A stretch of DNA of 64,000 nt from an uncultured Paracoccaceae bacterium. Lineage in GTDB: Bacteria; Pseudomonadota; Alphaproteobacteria; Rhodobacterales; Rhodobacteraceae. Of this stretch, positions 53,227 to 64,000 are shown in pieces. Each line of letters opens with the position of its first letter. Positions within the stretch are counted from its first letter, which is position 1. The stretch lies in contig CANLYJ010000002.1 of the NCBI GenBank assembly GCA_947495295.1, positions 682,001 through 746,000 on the forward strand, read 5' to 3'. Under the pieces are notes generated by a model that was not told the origin of the DNA, ran no database searches, and saw only the letters and a program-made list of their open reading frames with translations. The position numbers and the translations under genes were made by a program.

Positions 53227-54213
53227 TCAGCCTTTTAACCGTTCCAGCACATCCAGCCCCTGCATCGCCAGAAAATGCAGGATGTCGATGAAAATCCAGT
53301 TCTCGGCCAGCTTGTCACCATCCCGGCGGTACATATCAACCACCCGCATCTCTGCCGGTTCCCCGGCGGGCATGCCCAGATAGCCACCGGCATTGGTGAC
53401 CGTCAGATTGGCCCAGCCAAAGAAGCCCCCGAAATTACCTTCGGCCATCCGGCAGATATGGCCATTATAAACCCGGTCCTTGATCTGGGTGCGGAACGGC
53501 CCCTGATGCTGTGCGATGTAACGGTCGATCGTGTAGGTCGCCCCGATCCCCTCTGGCCCCCACCAGATCATGTCGTCATGCCAACACTGCGCCAGTTCCT
53601 CTTGCGGGGTGCTGTATTTCTGATGGGCGTTGATATCGCCGATCATGGTGTTGATCAGGGCGAGCGTCTTGTCACCCATCGCCGGGTCCGCATCATCAAA
53701 CAGCAACCCGTCATGGGTGGCAGGGCCGGGCTGGACCAGATGCATGCCGGTTTGCGGGGGCAGGGGGTATTGGCCCGCCTGCCGCATCAGGTGGATCAGA
53801 TCGCAGAACAGGGCGGTTTCGACAATCTTGCCATCCACGACCTTGTTGAATTCGGCATAGCGCAGCATCGCGATGCGGCGGTTCGGTTTGATCCCAAGGA
53901 ATTGCGCATCAAACAGGCCCATCAGATGGCCCATGGAGATCACCCAGACTGACTGAAATCCGTCGATTTCATTCTTGCCTGCGATAAAGATATCCTGCCG
54001 CCGCTGCACCGGCGACATGGCGGACAAGAAGGGTGACCAAAAACTGTCGGCCACCGCCTGCGCGCCGTGTTGTTCGTAAAACGGGTGCATGCCGCGCCAG
54101 TGCCAGTCGGGGCTGGTGCGTTCGGCCAGAACCGCCGCCACATTATCAGGCGTGGCCTTGGCCAGCGCATCGTAATGGGCGCGCACCAGCGCCTTTTCAG
54201 CTTGGAAACTCAT
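53227..54213 (-). CDS. Double SnoaL/NTF2-fold protein (paralogue A)
   Basis: A 328-residue protein with two NTF2-like halves. The first half (about 1-150) contains YEQHGAQAVADSFWSPFL and FCDLIHLMRQAGQYPLP. The second (about 160-328) contains ECWHDDMIWWGPEGIGATYTIDRYIAQHQGPFR and ENWIFIDILHFLAMQGLDVLERLKG. It resembles the protein at 60739 across both halves (WHDDMIWWGP versus [18 protein letters not shown] versus ENWVFVDI). SnoaL folds catalyse isomerisation, cyclisation or aldol steps, but no activity is shown. It is the last gene of the transporter operon. Confidence 0.85.
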   Translation of the reverse strand: MSFQAEKALVRAHYDALAKATPDNVAAVLAERTSPDWHWRGMHPFYEQHGAQAVADSFWSPFLSAMSPVQRRQDIFIAGKNEIDGFQSVWVISMGHLMGLFDAQFLGIKPNRRIAMLRYAEFNKVVDGKIVETALFCDLIHLMRQAGQYPLPPQTGMHLVQPGPATHDGLLFDDADPAMGDKTLALINTMIGDINAHQKYSTPQEELAQCWHDDMIWWGPEGIGATYTIDRYIAQHQGPFRTQIKDRVYNGHICRMAEGNFGGFFGWANLTVTNAGGYLGMPAGEPAEMRVVDMYRRDGDKLAENWIFIDILHFLAMQGLDVLERLKG

Positions 54214-54215
54214 GC

Positions 54216-55094
54216 TTATCCCTTAACGGCCCCTGCGGTCAGGCCGGATACAATCTGGCGCTGGAAGAACAGGATCATCACGAAAAGCGGTGCGGTCACG
54301 GATACAACCGCTGCCACTGCAAACATGACGTTGCCCTTGGTCTGGGTGGTGCCAAGGAAGCTAAAGATCTTGGGGATCATTGTGTGGTTTTCCTTGGACA
54401 AGAGCATCGTGGTTGTGGCGAAATCATTGAAGGCCAGCAGGAAGGAAAACAGGCCTGTGGTGATCACGCCGGGCCACATGACCGGGATGATCACATGGCG
54501 AAAGGCCTGAAAACGGGTGCAGCCATCAACCATGGCACTTTCGTCCAGATCCTTGGGGATGTTCTTGAAAAAGGAATGCAGCATCCACAGCGTGAAGGGC
54601 TGGTTGATCGCGACCAGCACGATGATGGTGGTCGAGAGATGCCCCCAGAGGTTCCATTCGAAAAACGGTAGCAGATAGCCAGAGACCAGCGTGATCGGGG
54701 GCATGGCCCGAAAGATCAGGGCGAAGAGCAAGAGCCAAAACGCGTAGCGATAGGTGGAGCGGGACAGGGCGTAACCCGCCAGTGTCCCGCAGGTGAGTGA
54801 GATGGTCACGACGAAAAAGCAAACGATCACGGTGTTGAGTGCAGCGCGCCAGAATTCTTCCTGAATCCAGGCACCATAATAACCGTCCCCGGTAAACGCG
54901 CCGCCTGTTTCAACACGGGTCAATGTGCCAAACAGCGAATTAGCCCAATCCGCCTTGGAAAAGAAATCACCTTCGACCTTGAACGACCCCCACAGCGTCC
55001 AGAGGAACGGGAAGGCGGCCATGATCAGCCAAAGCACCAGAAAACTGGTGGCGAGGAAACGGACGTTCAGCGGGCGGCGTGTGGCGACTGACAT
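54216..55094 (-). CDS. Sugar-type ABC transporter permease (MalG-like)
   Basis: A 292-residue inner-membrane permease with six helices. The EAA motif DLDESAMVDGCTRFQAFRHVIIPVMWPG (about 187-214) contacts the ATPase. The first helix is about 13-30. Start 55094 has AAGGGATCACCC upstream; the track start at 55169 is an extension. It is the CUT1-type partner of the upstream permease. The operon is binding protein, permease 1, permease 2, SnoaL on the minus strand, opposite the ATPase operon. Confidence 0.9.
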   Translation of the reverse strand: MSVATRRPLNVRFLATSFLVLWLIMAAFPFLWTLWGSFKVEGDFFSKADWANSLFGTLTRVETGGAFTGDGYYGAWIQEEFWRAALNTVIVCFFVVTISLTCGTLAGYALSRSTYRYAFWLLLFALIFRAMPPITLVSGYLLPFFEWNLWGHLSTTIIVLVAINQPFTLWMLHSFFKNIPKDLDESAMVDGCTRFQAFRHVIIPVMWPGVITTGLFSFLLAFNDFATTTMLLSKENHTMIPKIFSFLGTTQTKGNVMFAVAAVVSVTAPLFVMILFFQRQIVSGLTAGAVKG

Positions 55095-55104
55095 GGGTGA
55101 TCCC

Positions 55105-56130
55105 TTACTTTTGCGTGCCGAAATCGCGCCAGGTGCGCACAAGGACGGGTGAAAGAAGCATGGCGACAAAGATGATCGTCAGAACCGATGTGGCCGCAGC
55201 GGATGATAGCAACCGCGTCTCGCCCCCCAGATCATTGAAGATCGCATAGGACAGGGACGTGGCATGGGCTGCCGCACTGAAACTGATGATCGGTTCAAAG
55301 ACACGGAAGTTATCCATCAACTGGATCAAGGCGATAAAGGTGGTCAGGGGTGCCAGATGCGGCACCACGACATAGCGGATGCGTTCCCAGCGGCTGGCGC
55401 CATCGATCATTGCGGCTTCCAGCGTGTCCTGGTTCACGGTTTGCAGCCCGGCATAGTAAACGATGAAGGCGAACGGGGCCGAATGCCAGACCCCATAGAA
55501 CATCAACATCGCCCACATCAGCGGGGTTGATGCCTTGACTGACAGGGACGGATCGCTGGCCAACCATTGCAGCCCTGTGCCCAGAATGCCCCGCGCGTCC
55601 ACCATCCAGAAGATGATCAGCGACCCCACCAAAGGCGTCACAATCATCGGCAGAAGCGAGAAAAAGATTGTCGGCCCGCGCATCGCCCGCGCAACCGAAT
55701 TGACCGCAATAGCGATAAAGAAGCCAAGGATGATGGTCAGTGGGGTGACAATGGCGGTGTAGGTGATGGTGAACCCCAGAGCCTTGTAAAACGGCAGGTT
55801 CATCAGGGTGCGCCCGAAATCGGGCAAGCCATCAGAATTGATCCAGGCCTGCCCCACCTCGCTGATGGCAAGGTGATTGCGGTCTTTATAGATATCAAGG
55901 CCCGCCCATTTGCCAAGCGGTTCCGCCTCTTCCAATGCGGCGGTGGCTTCCTGGTCGACGGTCGTGGCCTTTGTGCAGCCAAAGGGGCCGCAGTTTTCAA
56001 CCTCGACAATCACCTGTTCATGTTTGGAATAAAGCGACTGGGTCACCACGGACACCAAGGGCAAGGCGATGAATAGGATCATCAGCAGCACGGATGGAAA
56101 AACAAACCAAAAGAATGTCTTATGCTTCAT
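55105..56130 (-). CDS. Sugar-type ABC transporter permease (MalF-like)
   Basis: A 341-residue CUT1 permease. The first helix is about 8-28, followed by a periplasmic insertion (about 35-110, with paired cysteines in CGPFGCTKAT), then five more helices. The EAA loop is TLEAAMIDGASRWERIRYVVVPHLAP. It is 72 nt downstream of the binding protein gene and 10 nt upstream of the second permease. The insertion with its Cys pair is larger than in most CUT1 permeases. Confidence 0.9.
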   Translation of the reverse strand: MKHKTFFWFVFPSVLLMILFIALPLVSVVTQSLYSKHEQVIVEVENCGPFGCTKATTVDQEATAALEEAEPLGKWAGLDIYKDRNHLAISEVGQAWINSDGLPDFGRTLMNLPFYKALGFTITYTAIVTPLTIILGFFIAIAVNSVARAMRGPTIFFSLLPMIVTPLVGSLIIFWMVDARGILGTGLQWLASDPSLSVKASTPLMWAMLMFYGVWHSAPFAFIVYYAGLQTVNQDTLEAAMIDGASRWERIRYVVVPHLAPLTTFIALIQLMDNFRVFEPIISFSAAAHATSLSYAIFNDLGGETRLLSSAAATSVLTIIFVAMLLSPVLVRTWRDFGTQK

Positions 56131-56202: not shown

Positions 56203-57444
56203 TTACTGCAGGAAGCCGTTTTCTTTGGCCGCTGCTGTATAGGCGGCTTCGATATCGGCCAGCGTCTGTTCGGCGCTTTCGCTGCCTTGCAGGAAGTCGG
56301 CGATGTTGTCACCCAATGCGGTGTGCAGCAGGCCCTGATATGGCACCATCGGATAAGGGGTGGAGCCTGCAGCAACCGCAGCCAGAACGCCTTCATTCAC
56401 CGGGGCAGGCTGGAAGCCTTCCATCAGCCAGACCGCCTGCGACATGGTTTCGTCATTCAGGATGTCAGGGGATACGCCAGCTTTCATCGCGGTAAAGGTT
56501 GCTGCGGCGTCTTCGTCGCTGACATTCTTGGCCACGGTCCAGCCATCCCACCACAATGTGGTGGCCGGTGTGCCGCTGTCACCCACCGTCAGCGGGCCGC
56601 CGACCTTGGTGTTTTCATAGACCTGCGGTTCTGATCCTTCGTCATCCATCAAAACGCCGCTCCGGCTGCCCCACATGTTCATCAGGGCCACATTGCCTGC
56701 TTCCCATTCCGCAGATGTCGCGTTGCTGTCATGGGTCAGGTAGTCGGGGTTCATGTATTCCGACAGCGCCTTCATCATTTCCAGCGCTTCGACGCCCTGG
56801 GCGTTGTTAATGCTGACCTCGGCTGTGCCGGGGTTAAAGAACTGCCCGCCGGTGCCGATATACATATTGGTGAATTCCTGGGCCAGGTTCCAGCCGGCGG
56901 CATAGGCGCCACCAACGGGGTTTTCCATAATACCTTCGGCGCGGATTTTCTCGGCTGCGGCAAGAACTTCCTCATAAGATGTCGGCACCTCGGCACCGAT
57001 CTGTTCCAGCACGTCAGCCCGGTACACAAGGTGCTGCGCGTTGGCCATGAAAGCAACCGCCATGATCTTGCCATCCACGGTGATCAATTGCTGCTTTGGG
57101 ATGTCCTGACCATGGGCCGCGACCAGATCATCCAGCGGCTGAATGACATCTTCGTTGATCAGCGCCACGATGGATGAATTGGCCACAATCGCGGTAGTGT
57201 ATTCTGCCGGATTGCCGGTCATGCCGGCCACGTTGATCTTCTGGTGATCGGCGGTCAGGTTCGCCTCTGCATCGTCACCGGCACAGGCTACAGCTGCGGC
57301 AGCGACGGTCTGAATCGCGGGGAATTCATTGCCCACGATGTTCAAGCGGCCATCTGTGCAGCCCCCGTGACCATCTGCTAGTGCGGCCGTGGTGCCAAGC
57401 GCGGCAAAAGCCGTGCTTAGGGTCAATTTCTTCATAAGTGTCAT
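56203..57444 (-). CDS. Sugar-type ABC transporter periplasmic binding protein
   Basis: A 413-residue family 1 solute-binding protein. The signal peptide is MTLMKKLTLSTAFAALGTTAALA (cut about residue 23). Conserved blocks are VPTSYEEVLAAAEKIRAEGIM and GNVALMNMWGSRSGVLMDD, with many aromatic residues typical of sugar or polyol pockets. Paired cysteines (HGGCTDG, AVACAGD) lie near the mature N-terminus. ATG 57444 is set by GGGAGAGACC; the track start at 57699 runs through the regulatory region. First gene of the minus-strand operon. Ligand unknown. Confidence 0.9.
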   Translation of the reverse strand: MTLMKKLTLSTAFAALGTTAALADGHGGCTDGRLNIVGNEFPAIQTVAAAAVACAGDDAEANLTADHQKINVAGMTGNPAEYTTAIVANSSIVALINEDVIQPLDDLVAAHGQDIPKQQLITVDGKIMAVAFMANAQHLVYRADVLEQIGAEVPTSYEEVLAAAEKIRAEGIMENPVGGAYAAGWNLAQEFTNMYIGTGGQFFNPGTAEVSINNAQGVEALEMMKALSEYMNPDYLTHDSNATSAEWEAGNVALMNMWGSRSGVLMDDEGSEPQVYENTKVGGPLTVGDSGTPATTLWWDGWTVAKNVSDEDAAATFTAMKAGVSPDILNDETMSQAVWLMEGFQPAPVNEGVLAAVAAGSTPYPMVPYQGLLHTALGDNIADFLQGSESAEQTLADIEAAYTAAAKENGFLQ

Positions 57445-57546
57445 ATGCTTGGTCTCTCCCAGTTGTATTTCCCACCCCCGGTTCGGGGGCCGTATTGTGA
57501 CGTTTCCCGCCACATGAATTTCAGCCGCGACCGAATCGCGACAGTT

Positions 57547-57562
57547 TTGCATACGTTTGCAA
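57547..57562. promoter_or_regulatory. LacI-type operator candidate O1
   Basis: TTGCATACGTTTGCAA has the central-CG near-palindrome of LacI-family operators (TTGCA..CG..TGCAA). It is the exact reverse complement of the site at 57671-57686. It is about 103 nt upstream of the binding-protein start. Confidence 0.8.
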
Positions 57563-57670
57563 TTTAATCCGCAAACCGCCACCCCGCGCAAGAAACTTTT
57601 CGAAAAATCCGCATTTGGTAAAGACAGAAAATTAGGGGTTGCTTGATTTGTGGAATCAGGCGAATGTTTT

Positions 57671-57687
57671 TTGCAAACGTATGCAAA
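57671..57687. promoter_or_regulatory. LacI-type operator candidate O2
   Basis: TTGCAAACGTATGCAAA mirrors O1 exactly over 17 bp in inverted orientation, with centres 124 bp apart. It ends at the AAAGGGG ribosome-binding site of the ATPase, so a bound repressor could block elongation or initiation there. Confidence 0.8.
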
Positions 57688-57697
57688 GGGGACGCGC

Positions 57698-58744
57698 ATG
57701 GCCGAAATTCAACTGCGCAACGTGACAAAACGGTGGGGATCCTTCGTCGGCGTCAAGGAATTTGACCTGACGATTGCCGATCAGGAGTTTCTTGTGCTGC
57801 TTGGCCCCTCGGGCTGTGGCAAGACCACAACCATGCGGATGATCGCAGGGCTGGAGGATGCATCCGGCGGCGATATCCTTGTCGACGGCAAGCGCATCAA
57901 CGATCTGGACCCCAAGGATCGCGATGTGGCAATGGTGTTCCAGTCTTACGCGCTTTACCCAAACATGAATGTCTACGACAATATCCGCTTTCCGCTGAAG
58001 GTCCGGGGCATTCCGCAATCGGAACATGACGACCGGGTCAAACGCGCCTCTGCCATGGTGGAACTGGATGAATTCCTGCATCGCAAACCCGCCGAACTGT
58101 CAGGTGGTCAGCGTCAGCGCGTGGCCCTTGCCCGCGCGGTTGTGCGTGAACCCAATGTGTTCCTGATGGATGAACCGCTGTCCAATCTGGATGCAAAGCT
58201 GCGGGTGTCGACCCGTGCGCAGATCAAGAATCTGAGCCATGAACTCAAAACCACAACCATCTACGTCACCCATGACCAGATCGAGGCGATGACCCTCGCC
58301 GACCGGGTCGTCGTGATGAACAAGGGGGTGGTCCAGCAGGTCGGCACCCCGACCGATATCTATGACAGCCCGGCGAATACATTTGTGGCCGGTTTCATCG
58401 GCTCCCCCGCCATGAACCTGATGGAAGGGGTGCTGGAAAATGGCACCTTCACAGCGCAAAATGTCACGATCCCGGGCCTGCCCACCAGCCATAACGGCCC
58501 GGTGACACTGGGCTTCCGGGCCGAGGATGCCAGTGTCGCCGAAAGCCAGGCAGAGGCGAATTCCAAGGTCTATTCGCTGGAACTGCTGGGCGAGGCGACG
58601 ATGGTCACGATGCGGGCCGGTGGCACGATCCTGTCGGTCAAATCGGGCAAGGATTACCGGGTCGAAATCGATGATCCGGTCAGCGCCAACATCCCGGCCG
58701 ACATTTGCCATCTGTTTGATGCTGAAACAGGTGAGCGTATCTAA
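57698..58744 (+). CDS. Sugar-type ABC transporter ATPase (MsmK/UgpC-like)
   Basis: A 348-residue ATPase. Walker A LGPSGCGKTTTMRM is at about 35-48, the Q-loop VFQSYALYPNMNVYDNI follows, then signature LSGGQRQRVALARA and FLMDEPLSNLDAKLR, and H-loop YVTHDQIEAMTLADR. A C-terminal TOBE region (about 245-348) is typical of CUT1 ATPases. ATG 57698 has AAAGGGG six bases upstream; the track start at 57650 is in the operator. It drives the two permeases encoded on the other strand. Confidence 0.95.
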   Translation: MAEIQLRNVTKRWGSFVGVKEFDLTIADQEFLVLLGPSGCGKTTTMRMIAGLEDASGGDILVDGKRINDLDPKDRDVAMVFQSYALYPNMNVYDNIRFPLKVRGIPQSEHDDRVKRASAMVELDEFLHRKPAELSGGQRQRVALARAVVREPNVFLMDEPLSNLDAKLRVSTRAQIKNLSHELKTTTIYVTHDQIEAMTLADRVVVMNKGVVQQVGTPTDIYDSPANTFVAGFIGSPAMNLMEGVLENGTFTAQNVTIPGLPTSHNGPVTLGFRAEDASVAESQAEANSKVYSLELLGEATMVTMRAGGTILSVKSGKDYRVEIDDPVSANIPADICHLFDAETGERI

Positions 58745-58748
58745 GCTG

Positions 58749-60251
58749 ATGCCGCAGAACCGTGCATATGATTTCATCGTTGTCGGTGCGGGATCGGCTG
58801 GTTGCGCGGTTGCCGCCAGCCTGGCTGATGCGCAGGCCGGTTCCATTGCGGTGATCGAGGCCGGGCCATCGGATGCCCATCCTTTTGTGAAAATCCCCTT
58901 TGCGCTGATCTGGCTGATGGGGTCGCGGCGCGACTGGCAATTCACATCCGCCCCGCAAAAGGCATTGGGCGGGCGGCAGATCAAGATCCCCCGCGGCAAG
59001 ATGCTGGGCGGGTCCGGGTCGATCAATTCGATGGTCTGGTTTCGCGGGCGCGCGGATGATTTTGACGGCTGGCAGGTCCCCGGTTGGGCATGGTCCGATG
59101 TGGCCCCGGCCTTTGATGCGATAGAGGCGCTTTTGACCCCTGCGTCCTTTGACGCAGCCCACCCATTGGTGCGTCGCTTGGGGCCGCTTTTTGGGGCGAA
59201 TACCGACACAAACCCGACCCCCGAACGCGAAAGCGGCGGGGTGTTCCGGTTCAACATGCGCCGCAACCGGCGCTGGTCGCCAGCCGATGCCTTTCTGCGC
59301 CCGGCGCAGGCCAAGGGCGTTACCGTTATCACGGGCAAAGAGGTCGCGCGGCTTGGCTTTGATGGCAAAACCGCGCGTGACGTTGTTTTCAAGGACGGCA
59401 GCACGATCCACGCCCGCCGGGGAATTGTGCTTAGCGCCGGAGCGATCGGGTCGCCGACGATATTGTTGCAGTCCGGCGTTGGACCGGCGCAAGATCTAAC
59501 CGCGCAGAATATCCCGGTGATCATGGATGCCCCCGGCGTGGGCGCCAACCTGCATGATCACCCCGGCGCGGGACTGCACTTTACAGGCAAAGGCACAGGC
59601 TATGGCGTATCGCTGGGGCAGGCGGCGGGCTGGCTGGCCGCCCCGCTGCAATACCTGCTGCGGCGCAAGGGCAGGCTGGCCTCGCCCACCGTCGAAGGCG
59701 GCATGTTTTTCAATGCCACCGGGCAGGGCACGGTTCCTGATGTGCAGACCCATTTCATCCCGTTTTTCCTGAACTGGAAAGGCAGCCGTTACGCGCCCGG
59801 TGAAGGATATTTCGCCGATATCTGCGTCTGCCGCCCCAAATCGCGGGGGCAAATGCGGCTGACCGATGACGGGATCAGCATTGATTTCAACCTGCTGTCT
59901 GACCCGGCCGATCTTGACCTGATGGTTGCGGGGCTGAAACGGCTGCGGGTCTTGCTGGCTGAGGCGGGATTGCCCGGTCACGAAGGCTATCCCGGCGCTG
60001 ATTGCCAAAGTGACGCGGCATTGCGCGCCTATATCAAGGCGCATTGCGGCACTGCCTATCACCCCGTTGGCACGCTGCGCATGGGAACGGGCGACGCGCC
60101 TGTGACGCCGCGCCTTGCCTTGCGCGGGTTGGAAAACCTTTGGGTCGCTGACGCCTCTGTCATGCCCAATATCACCTCTGCCAATACCAACGCCCCGTCG
60201 ATGATGATCGGTCATCGGGCGGGGCAGATCATCGCAAAGGATGCCGCATGA
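58749..60251 (+). CDS. GMC-family FAD oxidoreductase
   Basis: A 500-residue flavoenzyme of the choline dehydrogenase/alcohol oxidase family. The FAD loop DFIVVGAGSAGCAVAASL is at about 8-25. PRGKMLGGSGSINSMVWFRG is GMC signature 1, SAGAIGSPTILLQSGVGP signature 2. The C-terminal catalytic His is in HCGTAYHPVGTLRMG, the paired Asn in NTNAPSMMIGHRAG. No signal peptide, so it likely acts in the cytoplasm on an alcohol. ATG 58749 is four bases after the ATPase stop. It ends in an ATGA overlap with a SnoaL gene. Confidence 0.93.
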   Translation: MPQNRAYDFIVVGAGSAGCAVAASLADAQAGSIAVIEAGPSDAHPFVKIPFALIWLMGSRRDWQFTSAPQKALGGRQIKIPRGKMLGGSGSINSMVWFRGRADDFDGWQVPGWAWSDVAPAFDAIEALLTPASFDAAHPLVRRLGPLFGANTDTNPTPERESGGVFRFNMRRNRRWSPADAFLRPAQAKGVTVITGKEVARLGFDGKTARDVVFKDGSTIHARRGIVLSAGAIGSPTILLQSGVGPAQDLTAQNIPVIMDAPGVGANLHDHPGAGLHFTGKGTGYGVSLGQAAGWLAAPLQYLLRRKGRLASPTVEGGMFFNATGQGTVPDVQTHFIPFFLNWKGSRYAPGEGYFADICVCRPKSRGQMRLTDDGISIDFNLLSDPADLDLMVAGLKRLRVLLAEAGLPGHEGYPGADCQSDAALRAYIKAHCGTAYHPVGTLRMGTGDAPVTPRLALRGLENLWVADASVMPNITSANTNAPSMMIGHRAGQIIAKDAA

Positions 60252-60739
60252 GCCACGATCCGAAATCAGCCGCGTCACTGGCCGTCGTCAAGGCGATGGA
60301 GGCCGGGCTGGCCGCCAATGAAATGGACATGACCAAGTATTTCACCGAAGATTTCACATGGCGTGGCAATCAAGGCTGTGGCACAAAAAACGGGGTTGCG
60401 GCGTTCCAGCGCAACTGGCAATGGCCGCTGCGGGCGGCCTTTACCGACCGCGACTATATTACCGAAGAATTCCTAGCAGATGGCGAATGGGCCGCCTGTT
60501 TTGGCCATATCGAAGGCACGCATTCCGGCACGTTCATGGGCATCCCTGCCACGGGGAAACGGGTGAAAATCCCCTATATGGATTTCTGGCGGATCGAAGA
60601 TGGACGGATCGCCGATAACCCGGTTTCTGTCGATTTCGCCTCTGTCATGCAGCAACTGGGCGTCGATGTTTTTGGCGGCCACGGTTGGGAAAACTACGAT
60701 CGTGGTGATGCGACACCACCAACACCCCAGGAAATGTGA
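60248..60739 (+). CDS. SnoaL/NTF2-fold protein (single domain)
   Basis: A 163-residue protein with one NTF2-like domain. TKYFTEDFTWRGNQGCGTKNGVAAFQRNWQWPLRAAFTDRDYITEEFL and GTHSGTFMGIPATGKRVKIPYMDFWRIEDGRIADNPVSVDF match the SnoaL/polyketide-cyclase pattern (GxxATGxRVxxxxxDFWRIEDGRI). It overlaps the GMC gene by 4 nt and the next SnoaL gene by 1 nt (TGATG). Cytoplasmic. The chemistry is unknown. Confidence 0.88.
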   Translation: MSHDPKSAASLAVVKAMEAGLAANEMDMTKYFTEDFTWRGNQGCGTKNGVAAFQRNWQWPLRAAFTDRDYITEEFLADGEWAACFGHIEGTHSGTFMGIPATGKRVKIPYMDFWRIEDGRIADNPVSVDFASVMQQLGVDVFGGHGWENYDRGDATPPTPQEM

Positions 60740-61749
60740 TGTCACATCTGGCCAATAAACGACGTCTGAAAACCTATCTTGATACTTTTGCCCATCCGGG
60801 CGGGCATGATGACGCCGTACGCGATTTCTTTGCGCCCGGCGCAGTGATCCATCACAGCCATCCCATCAATGACCTGTCAGGGCCTGACGACTATATCACC
60901 CGGTTCCTGTCACCGCTCCAGACTGCGTTTCAGGGGCTTTACCGGCGCGACTACATCCTGACCGGCGGCGCGTTTGAAGAGGCCAACTGGGTCACTGCCA
61001 CCGGTTATTACGTCGGACATTTCGCCAATGACTGGCTGGGCATCAAGGCGACCGGCGCGTTGGCTTATCTACGCGTTGGCGAATTTCACCGGATGGAAAA
61101 CGGGCAGGCCGTTGAAAGCTGGATTTATCTGGACATCCCCGAATTGATGATCGCCGCCGGGCAATGGCCGATCGCCGACAGTCCGGGGCGCGATCGGGGC
61201 TATACCGGCCCGCATCGCGGTCCGGCGACCCAGGATGGGCTGCAACTGCATGAAAACGATCTGGCGCATGGCGAAAGCTCTGCCGCGCTCGTCACGGATA
61301 TGCTGGGGCAGCTGGCCACGCCCGATGAGGGCTGGCGCCCCTATTGGCACGACAACATGGTCTGGTACGGGCCGGCCGCCTTTGGCTCTTTTATTGGTCT
61401 TGAGAATTTCGCGGGTTTTCAGGTGCCGTTTGAACGGGCCTTTTCGCACTGGTCCGGCGGGTCCGCAGGCAATGGCGTCACCCGGCATCTGACCCGTCAG
61501 GGCGACGGCGACTATGTCTGGAGCGCGGGCTGGCCGTCGCTTATGGCCGTGCGCAAAGACGTGTTTCTGGGTCAGCCGCCCAGCACAGATACGCTGCTAA
61601 TGCGGGTGTGTGACTGGTGGCGGCGCGAAGGCGACCTGCTCGTCGAAAACTGGGTTTTCGTTGATATTCCCGATGTCCTTTTGCAAATGGGCGTCGATTT
61701 GTTTCCCGGGCTGCATGACGTTGCACCCGGTCCACGCATGGCAGCCTAG
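60739..61749 (+). CDS. Double SnoaL/NTF2-fold protein (paralogue B)
   Basis: A 336-residue protein of two SnoaL-like halves, similar in order to the 53227 gene. The N-half contains [32 protein letters not shown] and [42 protein letters not shown]. The C-half has [35 protein letters not shown] and [32 protein letters not shown] 60739 (TGATG overlap) is used rather than GTG 60736. It is probably a cytoplasmic enzyme in the catabolic pathway. Confidence 0.87.
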
Positions 61750-61762
61750 GAGAGTTCCGGCA

Positions 61763-63073
61763 ATGGCAATCACTTACCTCAAATCCGGTAAACCCGAAGC
61801 CGAACGGGCCGAGGATGATGCAAAAGTCCGCAAGATCGTTGAGGATACGCTGGCCGATATCGGCGCCCGCGGTGATGCGGCGGTGCGCGACCTGTCGGAG
61901 AAGTTCGACAAGTATTCACCGCCCAGCTTTCGCCTGTCGCAATCGGAGATTGATGCCGCCATGGCCAAGGTCTCTGCCCGCGATATGGAGGACATCAAAT
62001 TCGCACAGGACCAGATCCGCAATTTCGCGCAGGCACAGCGCGCTTCGATGACGGATGTAGAGGTTGAAACCATCCCCGGTGTGATCCTGGGCCACAAGAA
62101 TATCCCGGTCCAATCGGTTGGCTGCTATGTGCCCGGCGGCAAGTTCCCCATGGTCGCCTCCGCGCATATGTCGGTCCTGACGGCATCGGTTGCCGGGGTG
62201 CCGCGCATCGTGGCCTCTGCCCCGCCGCAAAATGGCGAACCGCATCCGGCCATTGTGGCTGCGATGCATCTGGGTGGTGCGCATGAGATTTACGTGCTGG
62301 GTGGGATGCAGGCCGTGGGCGCCATGGCGCTGGGCACTGAAACCATTGACCCGGTGCATATGATTGTCGGCCCCGGCAATGCCTTTGTGGCCGAAGCCAA
62401 GCGGCAATTATTCGGGCGTGTGGGCATCGACCTGTTCGCAGGCCCGACAGAAACCATGGTGATTGCTGATGACACGGTTGATGCAGAACTTTGCGCCACA
62501 GATCTGCTCGGGCAGGCCGAACATGGCTATAACTCTCCTGCCGTGCTGCTGACCAATTCCGAAAAACTGGCCCGCGACACGCTGAATGAAATCGACCGCA
62601 TTCTCGACATCCTGCCCACGGCGGAAACCGCGCGCACCAGTTGGGAGGATTATGGCGAGGTGATCCTTTGCGACACTTACGATGAAATGCTGCGCGTGGC
62701 CGATGACATTGCCTCTGAACATGTGCAGGTGATGACGGATCGCGACGATTGGTTCCTTGAAAACATGACCTGCTACGGGGCGCTGTTTCTGGGTGCCCGC
62801 ACCAATGTAGCCAACGGTGACAAGGTCATCGGCACCAACCACACGCTGCCGACTAAAAAGGCGGGTCGCTATACCGGCGGGCTTTGGGTTGGCAAGTTCC
62901 TGAAAACCCATAGCTACCAAAAGATCCTGACGGATGAGGCGGCGACGCTGGTCGGTGAATACGGATCACGGCTTTGCATGCTGGAAGGGTTCGTAGGCCA
63001 TGCCGAACAATGCAATATCCGCGTGCGCCGCTATGGTGGTAAAAACGTGGCATATGGAACGGCGGCGGAATAG
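61763..63073 (+). CDS. Histidinol-dehydrogenase-like enzyme
   Basis: A 436-residue HisD-fold protein. [39 protein letters not shown] is the NAD/active-site block, [12 protein letters not shown] the zinc region, and [33 protein letters not shown] the C-terminal HisD motif. Its catabolic context, not a his operon, suggests a secondary alcohol dehydrogenase similar to the sulfopropanediol 3-dehydrogenase HpsN. AGGAGAG eight bases before ATG 61763 fixes the start; the track start at 61610 lies inside the SnoaL gene. Substrate unknown. Confidence 0.9.
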
Positions 63074-63205: not shown

Positions 63206-63970
63206 ATGACGTTACCAAGCACACCGAGCTTCAAACTCAATGGGAAGCGCGCGTTGGTTGCGGGTGCGTCATCCGGCATCGGGCTGGGCTGCGCCGTGGC
63301 GCTGGGCGAGGCGGGGGCAGCAGTGACGCTGGCGGCCCGCAACATCGACAAATTGCAAGGTGCTGTCGATCAGATGACCGATGCGGGCATGCAGGCAGAG
63401 GCGCTGCAATTGGATGTGGCCAACGTCGCCGCGACAGAGGCGGCGGTCGCTGCCGCTGGCCCGTTCGACATCCTTGTCAATTCTGCCGGTCTGGCCATCC
63501 ACAGCCCCGCGACCGAAACAACCGAAGCAGATTTCGACGCGGTTGCCGATCTGAATATCAAAGGTGCCTATTTCCTGACCCGCAGCGTTGCCAAAGGGCT
63601 GATCGCCGCAGACAAACCCGGCAGCCTGATCAACATCTCAAGCCAGATGGCTTTTGTGGGCGGCATCGACAGGGGCGTCTATTGCGCCACAAAACACGCG
63701 GTTGAGGGGTTCACCAAGGCCATGGCCATCGAATGGGCGCAGCACAATATCCGGGTCAACACGATCTGCCCGACCTTTATCCGCACGCCGCTGACCGAAC
63801 AGACATTCAGCAACCCCGACCGCGTCAAATGGATCACTGAAAAGATCAAACTGGGCCGGGTGGGCGAGGTCAGCGATATCATGGGGCCGGTTGTCTATCT
63901 TGCCTCTGACGCATCGGCGCTCATGACCGGGACCCATATGCTGATCGATGGCGGCTGGACGGCGGATTGA
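63206..63970 (+). CDS. Short-chain dehydrogenase/reductase
   Basis: A 254-residue SDR. The NAD(P) motif GASSGIGLG is at about 18-26. ILVNSAGLAIHS is the NAG-like motif. The catalytic set is in INISSQMAFVGGIDRGVYCATKHA (Ser, Tyr, Lys). The C-terminus ends MLIDGGWTAD. ATG 63206 with GGAAC seven bases before is used; the track start at 63095 lies in the hairpin region. The cluster context suggests reduction or oxidation of the same substrate family. It ends in a TGATG overlap with the next gene. Confidence 0.93.
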   Translation: MTLPSTPSFKLNGKRALVAGASSGIGLGCAVALGEAGAAVTLAARNIDKLQGAVDQMTDAGMQAEALQLDVANVAATEAAVAAAGPFDILVNSAGLAIHSPATETTEADFDAVADLNIKGAYFLTRSVAKGLIAADKPGSLINISSQMAFVGGIDRGVYCATKHAVEGFTKAMAIEWAQHNIRVNTICPTFIRTPLTEQTFSNPDRVKWITEKIKLGRVGEVSDIMGPVVYLASDASALMTGTHMLIDGGWTAD

Positions 63971-64000
63971 TGGAAAAGGTGACGTCCCTGCAAGTGGCCG
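63970..64000 (+). CDS. Start of a probable LacI-family regulator (partial)
   Basis: Ten codons, MEKVTSLQVA, are visible before the window ends. They follow the SDR gene with a one-base TGATG overlap. VTSLQVA is the opening of the HTH in many roseobacter LacI regulators (typically followed by AGVSQSAVSRVF). This fits the LacI-type operator pair at 57547 and 57671. The identity cannot be proven from so few residues. Confidence 0.5.
   Translation, partial: MEKVTSLQVA

Follow-up and report, generated by a model that had tools for sequence, protein, structure and literature searches.

Two putative LacI-family operators with conserved spacing between the divergent transporter and ATPase operons of an uncultured Paracoccaceae bacterium

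The closest described systems are the lac and gal operons of Escherichia coli and the local LacI-family regulons compiled in RegPrecise. In lac, LacI tetramers form loops between paired operators around the promoter, and residues 17-18 of the LacI recognition helix are YQ. GalR, the repressor of gal, also lacks the LacI tetramerisation helix; the gal promoters are co-directional, and the gal operators do not stand on both start sites. The two gal operators are 113 bp apart and GalR forms a repression loop that depends on HU (PMC4693257). In the RegPrecise analysis (Ravcheev et al. 2014, PMC4052901), LacI-family sites are even palindromes with a central CG, and tandem sites precede approximately 20% of operons.

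The locus described in this work shares with the RegPrecise local regulons an even palindrome with a central CG, a local regulator of uptake and catabolism, apparent autoregulation and two sites per divergon; intersite distances peak there at 13, 22 and 32 bp, whereas the preferred distances here were 54-56 and 121-126 bp. With gal it has in common two operators at a similar distance, enclosing DNA with two promoters, and a LacI/GalR protein without the LacI C-terminal helix, but its promoters are divergent and the system is known from sequence alone, the HU loop being a feature of gal. With lac it shares paired operators around a promoter and a regulator homologous along residues 1-332, but LacI residues 333-360 have no counterpart here, the operator is different, and helix residues 17-18 are QS. 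A literature search for the operator string gave, among the matches listed, partial-string matches on unrelated subjects, and searches on the combination of genes yielded no relevant result. The locus is an ordinary kind of LacI-family regulon, local, well conserved and apparently undescribed, with unusually good comparative support.

The window (the whole stretch of 64,000 nucleotides that was analysed) contained the flanking genes given in a preliminary description of this DNA: a transporter operon on the minus strand to the left of the sites and an ATPase operon on the plus strand to their right. The left operon corresponds to a CUT1-type transporter, with genes for an ABC solute-binding protein (SBP_bac_1, 56203-57435, second ATG 9 bp upstream), a MalF/UgpA-like permease (55105-56130), a MalG-like permease (54216-55094) and, as last gene, a double SnoaL-like domain protein (53227-54213). 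The right operon encodes a UgpC/MalK-like ABC transporter ATPase (57698-58744; 454.9 bits to NF008653, cut-off 432), a GMC oxidoreductase (58737-60251), a SnoaL-like protein (60248-60739), a double SnoaL-like protein (60736-61749), an enzyme of the histidinol-dehydrogenase fold (61763-63073) and a short-chain dehydrogenase (63206-63970), and ends in the LacI-family gene. The start of this gene at 63970 was confirmed and overlaps the stop of the short-chain dehydrogenase gene; its first codons (63970-64000, plus strand) are in the window, and the gene, encoding 334 amino acids, runs to G000:C2:746974, beyond the window. Further genes past the window end encode what we take, from reading their sequences, to be SnoaL-like, double-cupin, MetE-like and glycolate-oxidase-like proteins. 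Four SnoaL-like proteins, several of them double-domain, are present in this one catabolic cluster: the three located above and L006:1972-2952.

Two exact 17-mers were confirmed between the operons: TTTGCATACGTTTGCAA at 57546-57562 (plus strand) and its exact reverse complement at 57671-57687 (minus strand). Position 57547, previously given as the start of the first copy, is the first base of a 16-bp palindrome and not of the 17-mer. The copies are inverted and exact, as described, but their orientation means little because a single T:T or A:A pair keeps each from being a perfect palindrome. The reported separation of 124 bp was correct when measured from centre to centre (57554.5 and 57678.5), and so was the central CG, the functional unit being the 16-mer TTGCA-W-ACGT-W-TGCAA. 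According to a weight matrix and a core tally, the repeated unit, TTGCAWACGTWTGCAA, a 16-bp near-palindrome with a central CG, has the form of LacI-family operators, which PMC4052901 describes as even palindromes 16-22 bp long and centred on CG. The first operator, O1 (TTGCATACGTTTGCAA, 57547-57562, in the 17-mer from 57546), lies at the predicted start site of the minus-strand transporter promoter, and the equivalent position is occupied in 43 distinct transporter/ATPase divergons; the second, O2 (TTGCAAACGTATGCAA, 57671-57686, in the 17-mer to 57687), lies at the predicted start site of the ATPase-operon promoter, with its centre 19.5 bp before the ATG. Neither was assigned to a strand. A chance inverted repeat, for which the shortness of the repeat is the sole point, has a negligible probability: allowing up to 3 mismatches, 4 matches were found in the window (the 2 sites on both strands) against 0.22 expected in shuffled sequences, and the repeat is kept in dozens of genera, a phylogenetic footprint that refutes chance. 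In the matrix scan the two sites scored 32-34 bits, and no other position in the window scored above 6.9.

The predicted ATPase-operon promoter (57639-57667, plus strand) consists of a -35 element TTGCTT (57639-57644), a 17-bp spacer and a weak -10 element GAATGT (57662-57667), with O2 following at once. The predicted transporter-operon promoter (57563-57591, minus strand) has a -35 element TTGCGC (57591-57586), a 17-bp spacer and a -10 element ATTAAA (57568-57563), at once followed by O1. Both -10 readings are weak, and a strict E. coli sigma-70 scan of the divergon found no promoter match. On the ATPase side, most relatives have a TTGN/TTGC-type element 38-40 bp ahead of the centre of O2; on the transporter side (17 relatives counted) such an element stands 36-37 bp ahead of the centre of O1, in conserved columns. 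The AT-rich gammaproteobacterial relatives L185, L188 and L192 show a like arrangement with a perfect TATAAT. Because the -35 and -10 readings directly precede the operators, we infer that each operator covers the transcription start of the promoter that precedes it. A terminator-like match at 57639-57663 was rejected; it overlaps the predicted promoter and is within shuffle expectation.

O1 and O2 are very probably the operators of the LacI-family repressor encoded from 63970, one over the start site of each of the two back-to-back promoters. When inducer is absent, a dimer of the repressor would occupy each site and block its promoter, silencing the transporter, the catabolic enzymes and the repressor's own gene together; the substrate of the pathway, or an intermediate, would release the repressor. 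The exact start sites and the autoregulation are predictions, and repression (not activation) and release by an inducer are deduced from the family to which the protein belongs. The protein carries an N-terminal LacI helix-turn-helix domain (PF00356, 48.4 bits, cut-off 27) and matches LacI over residues 1-332; the helix-turn-helix and the sugar-binding-like core are those of LacI/GalR transcription factors.

The pairing of this protein with the sites was examined in a family sample of 249 genomes, one per genus, and in a genus sample of 57 genomes, in both of which species share ancestry and the counts are not phylogenetically independent. The exact 16-mer was present in 27 of the 249 family genomes (reversed-pattern control in none), and the LacI orthologue in 107, including all 27 with the exact motif (Fisher p 1.5e-11). 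Outside the source genome, 25 of 26 motif loci found by the DNA pattern alone adjoin clear homologues of the cluster, and the 26th (L040) adjoins an ABC ATPase of 46% identity. In the genus sample 31 genomes have the LacI gene, 23 of them together with the exact motif; the motif occurred in 0 of the 26 genomes that lack the gene. The sites stand in promoter regions adjoining or linked with a LacI-family gene: 38 of 40 orthologue neighbourhoods had a site in a promoter of the cluster and, when the operon was split, the site went with the HisD-like or short-chain dehydrogenase gene.

Twelve LacI-family genes are present in the source genome, and the sites might belong to another of their products. 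This is highly improbable, although the paralogue of the inositol-type cluster resembles the adjacent protein in its helix (GVSRSAVSRT) and in its site (TTGCAACCGGTTGCAA): the exact motif is always accompanied by the orthologue of the adjacent gene, usually in physical linkage, residue 17 covaries with the operator, and the inositol paralogue has a site of its own. In a pattern search of the 4.27-Mb genome with up to 2 mismatches, O1 and O2 were the sole sites within one mismatch, and one further site was found within 2 mismatches (TTTGCAACCGGTTGCAA at C2:269541, L007:7542). It stands between divergent inositol-type genes, whose cluster has its own LacI gene (C2:263606), and is likely to be the operator of that paralogue. 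This IolR-type LacI is similar to the regulator at 63970 in its near-identical outer half-site TTGCA and its sister helix (VSRSAVSR), but the centre of its site is CCGG, as opposed to ACGT here, and its target is a different cluster. L133 contains a second such pairing of a site (18711) with a LacI gene (18813). Frequent copies of the 17-mer at unrelated sites, which would have refuted the preliminary description, were looked for and not found, the pair being unique in the genome.

The recognition helix, AGVSQSAVSRVF, is present in 129 of 141 orthologues. In all 107 loci with Gln17, one or both half-sites carried T at operator position 6, compared with 0 of 5 loci with Arg17, and the site covaries with the recognition helix in this respect, over few independent events: the five Arg17 loci may represent only two or three, L107 and L155 being one genome. 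The inositol paralogue of the source genome also has Arg17, and an A at the corresponding position of its site. Three other Arg17 orthologues (L167, L169 and L191) had no recognisable site in the fetched loci and may have a changed operator or a different gene order. The proposal that the two sites are operators of the LacI family, recognised by the protein encoded from 63970, thus finds strong support in genome uniqueness, co-occurrence with the orthologue and residue-operator covariation, and sequence comparison could hardly make the pairing more secure; the predicted control of both divergent operons is likewise supported, by an operator on each of the two promoters.

The spacing of the two operators was 121-126 bp in 34 of the 43 distinct transporter/ATPase divergons, the DNA inside the pair having a median identity of approximately 38% in the 124-bp group and the middle of the gap 33%, which is the background; the leader of the transporter gene for the solute-binding protein varied from 82 to 130 bp among divergons. 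The remaining divergons had spacings of 103, 145-146, 157-158 and 173 bp, plus one with three sites (L077:5918-6145, spacings of 117 and 95 bp). In divergons between SnoaL and ATPase genes the spacing was 54-56 bp in 41 of 41. These divergons (e.g. L084:4845-4914) contain between the operators a conserved CTTGCCA...GTCTA promoter pointing to the ATPase gene. The distance of 124 bp corresponds to 11.8 turns at 10.5 bp; a helical-phase test of the spacing classes gave p values of 0.08-0.38, with steps of about 21, 22 and 11 bp and the 173-bp class (L249) out of phase. A series of whole-turn spacings is not claimed, given these p values and the break at 173 bp.

The preliminary description had noted that the spacing permits looping that would repress both operons together. 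A coupled complex is plausible, since the spacing has been kept while the sequence diverged; a LacI-style tetramer loop was rejected, its defining C-terminal tetramerisation helix being absent from the 334-aa protein (the alignment ends at LacI residue 332) and from 12 orthologues. Both preferred spacings favour a coupled, GalR-like complex. The occupied operators may be linked through a loop or through cooperative contacts, as the length of the interval is conserved but its sequence is not; we give this reading a little under an even chance. The same repressor and operators might instead act as two independent dimers by steric block, without loop or contact, a reading that we consider possible and place somewhat below even probability. 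Each operator alone covers the predicted start site of its own promoter, and independent block would suffice for both operons; the repressor lacks the tetramerisation helix, and several relatives (L079, L082, L085 and L090) have a single site. Independent block leaves unexplained the 121-126 bp kept over diverged inner DNA, and the pairs of the 54-56 bp class that bracket single unidirectional promoters in the gammaproteobacterial L185, L188 and L192 (54 bp), where the upstream site would otherwise be without evident role. Alternatively, the spacing may reflect not coupling of the repressor but a constraint on the DNA that separates the two -35 elements, imposed by contacts of RNA polymerase alpha or by an activator: approximately 47 bp between the -35 elements is kept in most divergons, and a gap of constant length could seat an activator. 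This is unlikely; identity in the middle of the gap does not rise above background and no block is conserved there, which leaves no visible fixed-position site for a second factor.

Coupling of the repressor could be part of a wider pattern, which we put forward tentatively, as rather less probable than its opposite: a LacI lineage without the tetramerisation helix would use paired operators in two fixed geometries, one of 54-56 bp bracketing a single promoter and one of approximately 124 bp locking two divergent promoters in a GalR-like loop, with selection acting on the spacing while the looped DNA drifts. Its members are widespread in marine Rhodobacterales and occur in Roseibium, Microvirga and SUP05-type gammaproteobacteria as well. 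If the constraint on spacing reflects looping, the spacings of 54, 103, 124, 146 and 157 bp would be a natural series for the study of operator coupling without a tetramerisation helix.

With this putative assignment, a LacI regulator found in approximately 40% of the sampled family genera (107 of 249) acquires a DNA site and target genes, and the operator gives a searchable signature for the catabolic pathway. The closest protein in PDB to the HisD-like enzyme (61763-63073) was HpsN, the DHPS dehydrogenase, in which His126 binds the sulfonate (PMC11382572). In the enzyme encoded here and in those close orthologues that were checked, this position is Met (GKFPM); in the two 44%-identical HisD-like copies, from L093 and L113, it is Leu. 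DHPS, considered as substrate from the resemblance to HpsN, is not supported because the sulfonate-reading His is replaced by Met, and the HisD-like enzyme probably represents a distinct subfamily that acts on a different substrate.

Horizontal transfer of the cluster plus its regulation is suggested by contigs from gammaproteobacteria (Candidatus Thioglobus and related), in which the cluster occurs with 54-bp operator pairs around a TATAAT promoter (L188:16567-16636, L192:16567-16636 and L185:10220-10289).
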